Shown in pieces: positions 48,928-53,251 of a stretch of 64,000 nucleotides of DNA; position 1 is the stretch's first letter; every line of letters starts with the position of its first letter. The notes beneath the pieces were generated by a model that was not told the DNA's origin, did no database searches, and saw nothing but the letters and a program-made list of their open reading frames with translations. Source of the DNA: Pseudomonadota bacterium (GTDB lineage: Bacteria; Pseudomonadota; Alphaproteobacteria; Reyranellales; Reyranellaceae); the NCBI GenBank assembly GCA_018240745.1, contig JAFEFF010000202.1, forward strand, positions 1-64,000. Direction: 5' to 3'. The position numbers and the translations under genes are program-made.

Positions 48928-49728
48928 CTAGATCGAGACGGTATCCAGCGCCTGGGCGATCGCCGCACGCAGAAGGTCGGGGTCGAAAGGCTTGGATATC
49001 ACGAAGGCAGGCTCGAGCTGCGTGCCGGTCAGCAGGCGCTCGGGATAGCCGGTCACGAAGATTACCGGCACGGCCATCGACTGCAGGATCTCGCGCACGG
49101 CGGAGATGCCGCTGTCGGAGCCGCGCAGCTGGATGTCGGCCAGCACGAGATGCGGCGAATGCTTCGTGGCAAGTTCGACGGCCGCTTTCTCGGTCGCCGC
49201 GATGCCCACCACCTCATGGCCCGCGTTGCGCACGATATCGGCGACGTCGAGCGCGATCACCGCCTCGTCCTCGATCACCAGTACGCGCACGGAAGCGACG
49301 CGCTGCAGTTCGCGGCGCGCCTCCTGCAGGCTGCGCTCGGCCTTGTCGACGTCGATGTTGAGGATATGCGCGGCGTCGCCGACCGTGAAGCCTTCCAGCA
49401 CGGTGAGCAACAGCACCTGGCGCTGCAATGGCGCCATCTCGGTCAGGGACTCTTTCAGCCGCCCGCTGACGCTGCCAGCGTCGCCCGCCTGCTCGAGGCT
49501 GCCAAACGGCTGCTGCAGGCGATGGAACAGCGCGAACACGCCGAGCTTGGTGTCTTCCGCGTCCTTGATCAGCTCGGGCTGGCGCACCGCCACTTCGGCA
49601 CACAGCCGCACCCATTCGTCACCGCGTTGCTGGGAGCCCGTCACGGCGCGCGCGTAGCGCCGCAGGAACGGCAGCGTCTTGGTGATCGCCTCGGATAGTT
49701 TCTTGTTGTTTGCCGGTCCGTTTGACAC
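48928..49728 (-). CDS. phyR: General stress response regulator PhyR
   Basis: 266 residues. The N-terminal half (about 1-140) is a sigma-like domain with region 2- and region 4-type helices (LPFLRRYARAVTG; MAPLQRQVLLLTVLEGFTVGDAA). The C-terminal half is a receiver domain with VLVIEDEAV and the phospho-acceptor in VLADIQ near residue 197, ending VISKPFD. In known systems phosphorylated PhyR binds the anti-sigma factor NepR and frees EcfG. The arrangement is diagnostic for PhyR. Confidence 0.96.
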   Translation of the reverse strand: MSNGPANNKKLSEAITKTLPFLRRYARAVTGSQQRGDEWVRLCAEVAVRQPELIKDAEDTKLGVFALFHRLQQPFGSLEQAGDAGSVSGRLKESLTEMAPLQRQVLLLTVLEGFTVGDAAHILNIDVDKAERSLQEARRELQRVASVRVLVIEDEAVIALDVADIVRNAGHEVVGIAATEKAAVELATKHSPHLVLADIQLRGSDSGISAVREILQSMAVPVIFVTGYPERLLTGTQLEPAFVISKPFDPDLLRAAIAQALDTVSI

Positions 49729-50716: not shown

Positions 50717-51184
50717 ATGGTGAAGGACGACATCGTCGCGTTGCTGCCGGACTTGCGGGCGTTCGCGCGCTTCATGTGCCGCGAGCGCGAGGCTGCGGAC
50801 GATCTGGTGCAGAACACCGTGCTCGCCGCGCTCGACAAGCAGGCGCAGTTCGAGCCCGGCACCAACCTCAAGGGCTGGTTGTTCACCATCATGCGCAACC
50901 GCTTCTATTCGGACCTGCGCGCACAGCGGCGACGGCCAACCGCAATCGAGGATGTGAGCGCCACGCCTGTCGCCGCGGCCGACAACCCGGAGGCGACGCT
51001 CGAGCTGAGGGAGCTGTCCTCGGCCCTGTGGAAACTTTCTCCCCAGGCTCGCGAAGCGCTGATCCTGGTGGGCGCCGGCGGATTCTCCTATGAGGAGGCG
51101 GCCCGCCTCTGCGACTGCTCGGTGGGCACGCTGAAGGCCCGGGTATCCCGCGCCCGCAAGCTGCTTGCCGACAAGATGCGCTAA
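50717..51184 (+). CDS. ECF sigma factor, EcfG-like (first copy)
   Basis: 155 residues. Region 2 is LRAFARFMCREREAADDLVQNTVL with FEPGTNLKGWLFTIMRNRFYSDLR; region 4 is SPQAREALILVGAGGFSYEEAA with GTLKARVSRARKLL. The FxPGTN-LKxWLFTIxRN phrase is typical of the ECF15/EcfG group that responds to PhyR/NepR. It is shorter than the second copy and lacks its charged C-terminal tail. The frame is open further upstream, but the ATG at 50,717 is the first start inside the sigma-2 alignment. The symbol is left blank because two copies are present. Confidence 0.9.
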   Translation: MVKDDIVALLPDLRAFARFMCREREAADDLVQNTVLAALDKQAQFEPGTNLKGWLFTIMRNRFYSDLRAQRRRPTAIEDVSATPVAAADNPEATLELRELSSALWKLSPQAREALILVGAGGFSYEEAARLCDCSVGTLKARVSRARKLLADKMR

Positions 51185-51270: not shown

Positions 51271-51876
51271 ATGGCCATCGCCAATGCGAAAAAGAGCAAG
51301 ACGGCGAAGAACGACATCAACGATTTCCATGAGCAGCTCAAAGCCATTCTGCCCCGGCTTCGCGTTTATGCGCTGTCGCTGACGCGCGATCGCGATGCTG
51401 CCGACGATCTCGTGCACGACACCGTCATCAAGGCCCTGACGGGGCGCGAGAGCTTCGAGCCCGGCACCAACCTGTCGGCCTGGGTGTTCCGTATCCAGCG
51501 CAACGAATTCATTTCCGGCTTGCGCCGCATGCGGCCGTCGGTGCCGGTCGACTCGGCGATCGCCGAGACGCTGTCGCATCAGCCGCACCAGGAGAGCCGC
51601 TTGGTGATGCGCGAGTTCATGTCGGCCTTCGGCAAGCTTGCGCCGACACAGCGCGAGGCGCTGCTGCTCGCGGTGCTCGAGGGCCAATCGTACGAGGTCA
51701 TTGCCGCGCATACCGGCGTCTCGGTCGGGACGGTGAAGAGCCGCATCTCGCGCGCCCGCGACATGCTCGAGCGCCTGCTGCTGGAGGGCGATGTCAAGGA
51801 GCGCAGCGAGACCGTCACGCGGCCATCGACACACGCCGACGACGAAGAGACCGATGTCCGGATCCACGAGCGCTGA
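51271..51876 (+). CDS. ecfG: ECF sigma factor EcfG (second copy, next to nepR)
   Basis: 201 residues. It shows the same group signatures as the first copy (SFEPGTNLSAWVFRIQRNEF; GQSYEVIAAHTGVSVGTVKSRISRARDML). It carries a Lys-rich N-terminus and a charged tail of about 30 residues. The ATG at 51,271 follows GGAG by about eight bases; the frame opens 10 codons earlier. It lies 83 bp upstream of nepR in the same direction. A degenerate GTAAC-N16-CATT element at 51,218-51,242 is the only promoter-like match upstream. Confidence 0.9.
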   Translation: MAIANAKKSKTAKNDINDFHEQLKAILPRLRVYALSLTRDRDAADDLVHDTVIKALTGRESFEPGTNLSAWVFRIQRNEFISGLRRMRPSVPVDSAIAETLSHQPHQESRLVMREFMSAFGKLAPTQREALLLAVLEGQSYEVIAAHTGVSVGTVKSRISRARDMLERLLLEGDVKERSETVTRPSTHADDEETDVRIHER

Positions 51877-51959: not shown

Positions 51960-52208
51960 GTGGAAGCCTCCTCGCTCCACGCGCAGTGTGCCATGGCGAA
52001 TGACAACAAGCCGCAAAAGGACCGGGCCGCCGAGGCGGCCCGGGACAAAAAAGTGAAAGAGCCTGCAGAACGGCCTTTCGATATGTGGCTGCAGAAGCAA
52101 CTGCACGCGATGTACGACGAGATCGCCGCCGAACCACTGCCCAACGATCTCGTCAATCTGATCGAGCGCGATGCCAGCAGGAGCAAGCCGCCGCGCAAGA
52201 AAAAGTAA
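51960..52208 (+). CDS. nepR: Anti-sigma factor NepR
   Basis: 82 residues. The core FDMWLQKQLHAMYDEIAAEP with LPNDLVNLI is the NepR signature: two amphipathic helices that clamp EcfG and are captured by phosphorylated PhyR. Flanks are Lys/Arg-rich and probably disordered. Start: a GTG at 51,960 follows GGAGGG by six bases and is preferred; an ATG at 51,993 has no clear ribosome-binding site. In many relatives nepR precedes ecfG; here it follows it. Confidence 0.93.
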   Translation: MEASSLHAQCAMANDNKPQKDRAAEAARDKKVKEPAERPFDMWLQKQLHAMYDEIAAEPLPNDLVNLIERDASRSKPPRKKK

Positions 52209-52248
52209 GAGGGCAACGGGGCGACCTCCTCTCCTTGCAATCGGGAGC

Positions 52249-52416
52249 AAAAAAGAATGGCGGCGGTCTTGCGACCGCCGCCATTCCCGGTTCGCGGCGC
52301 GCCAGTCAGCCCGGCCGGCGCGCAGCGAACTCGTCTTGAAGAGGTCGGTAGCGCACAACGCCAAGAGAACGGCGGCCAAGGCCGGGCCTCGCCATGTTTC
52401 CTCCCAACTCTTCGAT
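52249..52416 (-). ncRNA. Predicted GSR-dependent small RNA (or short mRNA)
   Basis: Predicted from its ends. A canonical EcfG promoter (52,447-52,423) would start transcription near 52,416, and a strong intrinsic terminator ends at a T-run at 52,254-52,249, giving about 168 nt. No annotated gene lies on this strand in the gap. The RNA contains GGGAGG four bases before an ATG at 52,395, opening a 29-codon frame (52,306-52,395, basic product), so it could encode a peptide; alternatively the GGAGG may be an exposed loop. The region sits between nepR and the SDR gene. Existence is inference until expression is shown. Confidence 0.45.
52255..52286 (-). terminator. Strong intrinsic terminator on the minus strand
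   Basis: GAATGGCGGCGGTC and GACCGCCGCCATTC form a perfect 14-bp stem with a 4-base loop, followed on the minus strand by six T (52,254-52,249). On the plus strand it lacks a T-run. No leftward protein gene ends here. Confidence 0.75.
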
Positions 52417-52420
52417 CGAA

Positions 52421-52445
52421 GGAACGCGCCAGCCGGTTTGAGGTT
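52421..52445 (+). promoter_or_regulatory. Candidate EcfG promoter of the SDR gene, overlapping a divergent one
   Basis: Plus strand GGAAC (52,421-52,425), 16 bases, GGTT (52,442-52,445). The -10 has one mismatch from CGTT. It lies 44 bases before the SDR start and overlaps the minus-strand element almost completely. Confidence 0.35.
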
Positions 52446-52447
52446 CC
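52423..52447 (-). promoter_or_regulatory. Canonical EcfG promoter facing nepR
   Basis: Minus strand GGAAC (52,447-52,443), exactly 16 bases, CGTT (52,426-52,423). Full consensus match. No protein gene follows on this strand before the terminator at 52,286-52,249. Confidence 0.65.
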
Positions 52448-52489
52448 CTCGCTGGCCGCTATACAAGCGACCAACCGGAGGAAAACCCC

Positions 52490-53251
52490 ATGAAGCTGTT
52501 CGATCTCTCTGGCCGGGTCGCGGTGATCACCGGCGGCAATGGCGGCATCGGCCTCGGCATGGCCAAAGGCATGGCGGCCGCCGGCGCCACGATCGTGGTC
52601 GCCGGACGCGACGCCGCGAAGAACGGCGCCGCGGTGAAGGAGCTGAAGGACGCCGGCGGCCAGGCGACCGCTATTCCGGTCGACGTGCTGAAGGAAGAAT
52701 CGTGTCGCTCGCTGATCGACCAGACCGTGAAGGCGCATGGCCGGCTCGACATCCTGGTCAACAATGCCGGCATGAGCATCCGCAAGCAGCCCGAGCAGTA
52801 CACGCTCGCCGAGTGGCACACGGTGCTCGACAGCAATCTCACCAGCGCTTTCCTGTGCAGCCACGCCGCCTATCCGGCGCTGAAGCGGCGCGGCGGCAAG
52901 ATCATCAACATCGGCTCGATGATGTCGATCTTCGGCGCACCGTTCGCCACCGCCTATGCCGCGAGCAAGGGCGGCATGGTGCAGATGACCAAGTCGATGG
53001 CGACGGCGTGGGCCAAGGACAATATCCAGGTCAATGCCATCCTGCCGGGCTGGATCGACACCGCCCTCACCCGTCGCGCGCGCGAGCAGGTGCAGGGCCT
53101 GCACGACTCGGTGTTGAAGCGCACGCCGGCCGCGCGCTGGGGCGTGCCCGACGACTTCGCCGGCATCGCGGTTTTCCTCTCGTCACCCGCCTCGGATTTC
53201 GTCACCGGCGCCACGATCGCCGTCGACGGCGGCTACTCCTCGCTCGCCTAG
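52490..53251 (+). CDS. SDR-family oxidoreductase
   Basis: 253 residues, a classical short-chain dehydrogenase. TGGNGGIG (the TGxxxGxG cofactor loop) is near residue 14, LVNNAG near 91, catalytic Ser in INIGSMMS, the YAASK motif (Tyr and Lys) near 162, and PGWIDT after it. The sequence resembles gluconate/2-deoxygluconate dehydrogenases and 3-oxoacyl reductases; the substrate cannot be told. AACCGGAGG precedes the ATG. It follows the GSR region and may belong to it through the element at 52,421-52,445. Confidence 0.92.
   Translation: MKLFDLSGRVAVITGGNGGIGLGMAKGMAAAGATIVVAGRDAAKNGAAVKELKDAGGQATAIPVDVLKEESCRSLIDQTVKAHGRLDILVNNAGMSIRKQPEQYTLAEWHTVLDSNLTSAFLCSHAAYPALKRRGGKIINIGSMMSIFGAPFATAYAASKGGMVQMTKSMATAWAKDNIQVNAILPGWIDTALTRRAREQVQGLHDSVLKRTPAARWGVPDDFAGIAVFLSSPASDFVTGATIAVDGGYSSLA

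Follow-up and report, generated by a model that had tools for sequence, protein, structure and literature searches.

Organization of the region between nepR and the SDR gene

The window, that is the whole stretch of 64,000 nucleotides analysed here, comes from a bacterium of the genus Reyranella. It carries the general stress response (GSR) genes phyR, ecfG and nepR, a second EcfG-like sigma factor gene, a HisKA_2 histidine kinase gene and an SDR-family oxidoreductase gene (Table 1). The ecf-ecfG-nepR-SDR order is conserved in the genus, and in most of the Reyranella genomes read the second EcfG-like gene lies directly upstream of ecfG. The nepR gene was assigned by synteny and by a Pfam NepR match of 21.9 bits, which is under the cut-off of 25.7.

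The original prediction placed a stress-induced small RNA, or a peptide mRNA, on the minus strand between nepR and the SDR gene. The elements on which it was built are all present as described: a GGAAC-N16-CGTT motif (52447-52423), a 14-bp hairpin followed by six T (52286-52249) and a 29-codon frame (52395-52306) behind GGGAGG-AAAC-ATG, with no other leftward gene between promoter and terminator. The GGGAGG ribosome-binding sequence occupies 52405-52400. On the minus strand the terminator reads GAATGGCGGCGGTC-GCAA-GACCGCCGCCATTC-TTTTTT, its last base being 52249. Transcription would start near 52416, as placed by the usual distance from the -10 element, and the predicted leftward RNA would be about 168 nt long in the window and about 90-150 nt in relatives. 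A further hairpin just 5′ of the terminator, SL1, had been overlooked and is the most informative part of the locus.

The GGAACC box of the RNA gene overlaps a TTGAGG-like -35 element of the divergent SDR gene (-10 TATACA; 52421-52470, plus strand), and the two promoters may compete. In several relatives (L008-L012, L016, L019) nepR and the RNA gene are separated by a plus-strand gene of about 90 aa. It has no Pfam match and possesses its own GGAAC-N16/17-CGTT promoter (MLASEDKKKALTNPSS... in L008).

Table 1. Features of the candidate RNA gene and its neighbourhood (positions in the window).
Feature	Position	Strand	Basis or remark
EcfG-type -35 element GGAAC (GGAACC)	52443..52447	-	Sequence; predicted promoter
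EcfG-type -10 element CGTT, spacer 16 nt	52423..52426	-	Sequence and promoter comparison; predicted
29-codon frame MARPGLGRRSLGVVRYRPLQDEFAARRPG*	52306..52395	-	Remnant of lipoprotein gene, by comparison with intact genes
SL1, covarying 15-bp hairpin	52290..52330	-	Alignment, pair counts, fold
SL1 apical loop CCGGGCUGA	52306..52314	-	Alignment; proposed recognition site
SL2, 14-bp terminator hairpin	52255..52286	-	Sequence, terminator scan, pair counts
Intrinsic-terminator U-run	52249..52254	-	Sequence
SDR-family oxidoreductase gene	52490..53251	+	Divergent from RNA gene; conserved synteny partner
nepR, anti-sigma factor gene	51993..52208	+	Convergent with RNA gene; Pfam NepR and synteny
ecfG, sigma factor predicted to use the promoter	51271..51876	+	Domain search
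Second EcfG-like ECF sigma factor gene	50717..51184	+	46% identical to EcfG; start codon by inspection
phyR, anti-anti-sigma response regulator	48928..49728	-	Domain search

Conservation of the EcfG-type promoter

The exact GGAAC-N16-CGTT motif occurs three times in the window (0.62 expected) and 101 times genome-wide, compared to 85 matches for the reversed control. A single exact promoter match is weak evidence by itself. The hairpin is the top terminator-like site within its 14-kb stretch, in which such sites show no overall enrichment (6 found, 7.2 expected). What raises the locus above chance is comparison. Among 46 nepR-SDR intergenic regions, many of them from MAGs, G[GC]AACC-N16/17-CGTT was found upstream in 35 of the 37 module-bearing syntenic Reyranella loci, where dinucleotide shuffles gave an expectation of 0.125. 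The search pattern could begin with GG or GC, and AAC and GTT were held constant; the C after AAC and the first C of the -10 element were free or nearly so, yet both are invariant. AACC is present in 35 of 35 promoters found, preceded by GG or GC variants of the first two bases (the -35 element is GCAAC in some species). This is the conserved GGAAC-N16/17-CGTT promoter by which the EcfG regulon is recognized.

All three copies of the motif in the window precede leftward GSR-type genes. The third exact copy (50275-50251, minus strand) lies ahead of an operon made of a short ORF and a glycine-zipper lipoprotein gene, and a CsbD-like gene is located nearby (50541-50344, minus strand). Another copy, GGAACC-N16-CGTT at 40539-40515 on the minus strand, precedes an operon containing a DUF1328-type gene (40472-40305) and a lipoprotein gene (40287-39970). 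EcfG control of the RNA gene, as originally proposed, is a prediction well supported by the motif, by the synteny with ecfG-nepR and by the same motif ahead of these other GSR-type operons.

A covarying RNA module on the minus strand

The conserved 3′ part of the locus is an 85-nt module composed of SL1 (15 pairs) and the terminator hairpin SL2 (14 pairs). In 34 aligned sequences 94.1% of the cells are paired, compared to 54-60% in the best slid controls; this figure is flattered by the derivation of alignment and structure from the same sequences, and the double changes and strand bias are less so. Changes on both sides were observed in 15 of the 29 pairs. Double-change cells amount to 60 against 22.8 in shuffles, and no structure slid by 1-3 columns exceeds 20. 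Moreover, G-U cells outnumber A-C cells (158 vs 16), an excess indicating an RNA structure on the minus strand. The loop CCGGGCUGA is nearly invariant, the exceptions being L064, where one C is missing, and L082, where one G is changed to A. The leader before SL1, unlike the loop, is not conserved. In the ORF-less clade formed by L073-L078 and L100, inspection by eye and a fold of L073 revealed an apparent extra GC-rich hairpin between the promoter and SL1. The original prediction required that close relatives should have kept the promoter and the terminator; both extend over much of the genus, together with the covarying structure.

A covariance model of the module, R1, detects it in 39 of 65 Reyranella genomes, each with a single clear copy. 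Outside Reyranella, nothing credible was found in a sample of 289 genomes of the class. Matches of 34-39 bits elsewhere in the class, and weak second matches in genomes G013, G041 and G009, were put down to chance or to reverse-strand echoes; at the second site of G013, which was inspected, promoter and loop match are both absent. No Rfam family matched at gathering score anywhere in the window, and a permissive scan of 52200-52490 gave sub-threshold matches only, the best being RsmW (20.6 bits for a cut-off of 52). The accessible literature on sRNAs in Reyranella yielded no related work.

The module overlaps the end of a lipoprotein gene

In 11 of the 46 syntenic loci, the same promoter stands ahead of a gene encoding a lipoprotein of 77-105 aa. 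In 26 loci the lipoprotein is gone while promoter, RNA module and terminator remain, and in 8 the module has been lost altogether; the module is thus not essential. The module lies 231-330 nt from the -10 element in coding loci and 7-64 nt from it in 24 ORF-less loci, with the window (87 nt) in between. The lipoprotein ends in ...EFAARRP[GVA]* or a close variant, and the 5′ arm and loop of SL1 are formed by its last codons and stop. In L061, L062, L067 and L069-L071 the module shares the terminator of the parental mRNA, as expected for a 3′-end-derived sRNA.

The intact genes compared were those of L061, L062, L067, L069-L071, L085, L091, L095 and L099. Synonymous changes were counted in pairwise comparisons of codons for conserved residues, which are not independent. 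For coding forms with the module (L067, L069-L071) they affect 6 of 51 comparisons in the last 9 codons and 210 of 413 before, as against 20 of 47 and 160 of 474 in the coding clade without a recognizable module (L085, L091, L095, L099). This comparison shows that the last lipoprotein codons of the module-bearing coding forms are constrained at the RNA level. The coding forms are also under protein selection, with dN well below dS.

Neither Pfam nor NCBIfam contains a family for this lipoprotein. Paralogues are found elsewhere in these genomes, with a common CxxYG...C pattern and RRPx* ends, and a GGAACC-N16-CGTT promoter is present at four of the five read. One of them is the lipoprotein gene at 40287-39970 on the minus strand of the window, which is intact and of the CxxYG type. 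Such paralogues could cover for the lost protein. In the window, the frame at the candidate RNA locus has inherited the RBS and start, is frameshifted after MARP, lacks the middle of the gene and rejoins the original frame in the tail. Judged against the intact genes, the window locus is an intermediate between the coding and the ORF-less forms.

Repeated loss of the lipoprotein ORF

On a tree of EcfG, NepR and SDR sequences the coding forms fall into three separated groups, and the window lies beside the coding loci L061 and L062. Five changes of state are required on this tree when absent loci are left out. The AU test rejects a single clade of all ORF-less forms (p 8e-46), the joining of the two large ORF-less clades (p 0.001) and a clade of the window with L066 and L121 (p 0.007); these p-values are weakened by the fact that the groups were named after inspection of the tree. 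These data imply that the lipoprotein ORF was probably lost about four or five times, a number kept approximate by the unsure root of the tree. Rooting with Vineibacter gave an outgroup branch of 1.39, too long to decide the root. However, the 5′ arm of SL1 is homologous to the ends of the paralogous lipoproteins (...RRPx*), which indicates that the coding state came first. Intergenic recombination between species could mimic some of the parallel losses. In most ORF-less forms the predicted transcript contains no ORF preceded by a Shine-Dalgarno sequence, and in several it contains no ORF at all. Promoter, hairpin and terminator outlast repeated loss of the protein, suggesting that the function resides in the RNA.

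Proposed function and alternative explanations

We consider it likely, from sequence comparison, that the locus is a Reyranella general-stress sRNA gene, driven by EcfG and derived from the 3′ end of a lipoprotein mRNA. Its working part would be the 85-nt module, with SL1 presenting the loop CCGGGCUGA ahead of the terminator hairpin. The module would have originated in the 3′ region of a lipoprotein mRNA under GSR control, overlapping the last codons and the stop; the ORF would then have eroded several times independently while promoter and module were retained, the window being caught midway. Under stress, EcfG freed from NepR would lead to accumulation of the RNA, and the SL1 loop would recognize target RNAs by base pairing. 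With somewhat less assurance, we also favour the view that a stress-controlled lipoprotein mRNA first gained a 3′ RNA regulator across its stop codon, and that about five Reyranella lineages then separately discarded the protein, leaving only an sRNA gene driven by the unchanged EcfG promoter.

Searches for targets were made with the complement of the loop. The 10-mer complement is not enriched in 8 genomes. Among 15 katG upstream regions, whose gene starts were roughly placed, complements of at least 7 nt occur in two, at no consistent site. Genes neighbouring the locus gave 278 loop-complement matches compared to 244 in two of three controls, and hence no target signal. A recurring AGCCCGGC match, located about 800 nt ahead of the nepR stop and in or close to ecfG, is apparently explained by conserved codons (...PGTNL...) and is not put forward as a target.

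A different partner for the RNA is conceivable in cis. Being tail-to-tail with nepR, or with the next small GSR gene, it could pair with a read-through ecfG-nepR mRNA and promote its processing, giving feedback on the stress switch. The convergent layout is found in all syntenic loci, and in the window no plus-strand U-run terminator for nepR precedes the module. The loop also contains CUGA, which fits YUNR, the pattern of antisense recognition loops that arises by chance in about one third of 9-nt loops. However, cis pairing needs neither a conserved loop nor strand-specific G-U pairs, and both are observed; furthermore, the plus-strand neighbour varies and its distance ranges from tens to hundreds of bases. 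We therefore regard cis-antisense pairing as unlikely.

That the functional product is instead a translated peptide, encoded by the 29-codon frame or by a short one with an EFAxRRPG end, has a very low probability. The good RBS and ATG of the window are inherited from the intact gene, and frames of 22-24 codons with the same or a similar tail do exist in L073, L075, L089 and L100. However, many ORF-less forms have no in-frame start, the gap from the -10 element to SL1 being 7-22 nt in L066, L079, L092, L096, L121 and others. The window frame has neither signal peptide nor lipobox, the sister species L073 and L074 differ in their frames, and SL1 pairing accounts for the tail codons. Among the alternatives originally offered (an sRNA, a peptide mRNA or both), the evidence favours the sRNA, and the 29-codon frame is a lipoprotein remnant, not a conserved peptide.

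The view of the locus as an inert relic, in which a lipoprotein gene is dying and simply has not yet shed its promoter and terminator, is equally hard to credit. In its favour, the gene is clearly broken in the window, the locus has been lost from eight relatives and intact paralogues are available that could take over. However, loop, covarying stems and promoter persist long after ORF loss in two large clades (14 and 9 tree rows), in which the sequence between the conserved parts has diverged. Finally, it is extremely improbable that the hairpins and promoter-like box act as a DNA-level or boundary element serving the divergent SDR gene, or in termination only: the GGAACC box does overlap the SDR -35 element and adjoins a sigma-70-type -10 TATACA, but CGTT at 16-17 nt on the minus strand is invariant in the promoters found, the minus-strand pairing is RNA-like and SL1 is unnecessary for termination.

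Relation to known systems and significance

The preferred reading, a general-stress sRNA gene, invites comparison with GsrN of Caulobacter crescentus, which activates katG mRNA by pairing through a conserved C-rich loop (PMC5869019). BLASTn matches to GsrN are confined to Caulobacteraceae, and other GsrN-like RNAs have been proposed by position and promoter (PMC5869019). The Reyranella locus has both of these features, a predicted sigma-EcfG promoter and a gene beside ecfG/nepR/phyR. Like GsrN, the predicted RNA is short, with a hairpin that exposes a conserved loop ahead of a terminator; in Reyranella the loop lies near the 5′ end in the compact forms only, and CCGGGCUGA has three C in nine positions. 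The loop sequence itself, the origin from a lipoprotein gene and the restriction to one genus set it apart, and the roughly placed katG leaders gave no consistent signal. On grounds of location and promoter GsrN can be called an analogue, not a demonstrated homologue.

As in SgrS/SgrT of enteric bacteria, a 5′ ORF, a conserved pairing region and a terminator are combined in one stress-induced RNA, which in Reyranella is predicted. On comparative evidence, ORF and RNA function appear to share one transcript, with the ORF dispensable in some species, as in dual-function RNAs. In Yersinia, SgrS has lost the ORF and its RNA is shortened to about 85-140 nt (PMC4021124). Unlike SgrT, the Reyranella ORF belongs to a paralogous lipoprotein family; its last codons and stop are overlapped by the module, and it was probably lost on about four or five occasions within one genus. 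No homology to sgrS was found, since there is no Rfam match at gathering score and sgrS is absent among the weak matches. In the 3′-end sRNAs (CpxQ, MicL, SdhX and others), too, the regulatory module forms the 3′ part of a stress mRNA and uses that mRNA's intrinsic terminator (PMC9438474). They are excised or internally promoted while the gene stays (PMC9438474), whereas in Reyranella deletion of the gene body would place the RNA directly under the mRNA promoter.

The birth of sRNA genes is usually guessed from single end points. Reyranella offers an apparent series, from a lipoprotein without module to a lipoprotein with module, a broken intermediate and the RNA alone, at one syntenic place and with one promoter. 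It would also add a predicted family of GSR-linked sRNAs outside the groups in which GsrN-like RNAs have been proposed, with a loop defined for mutation.
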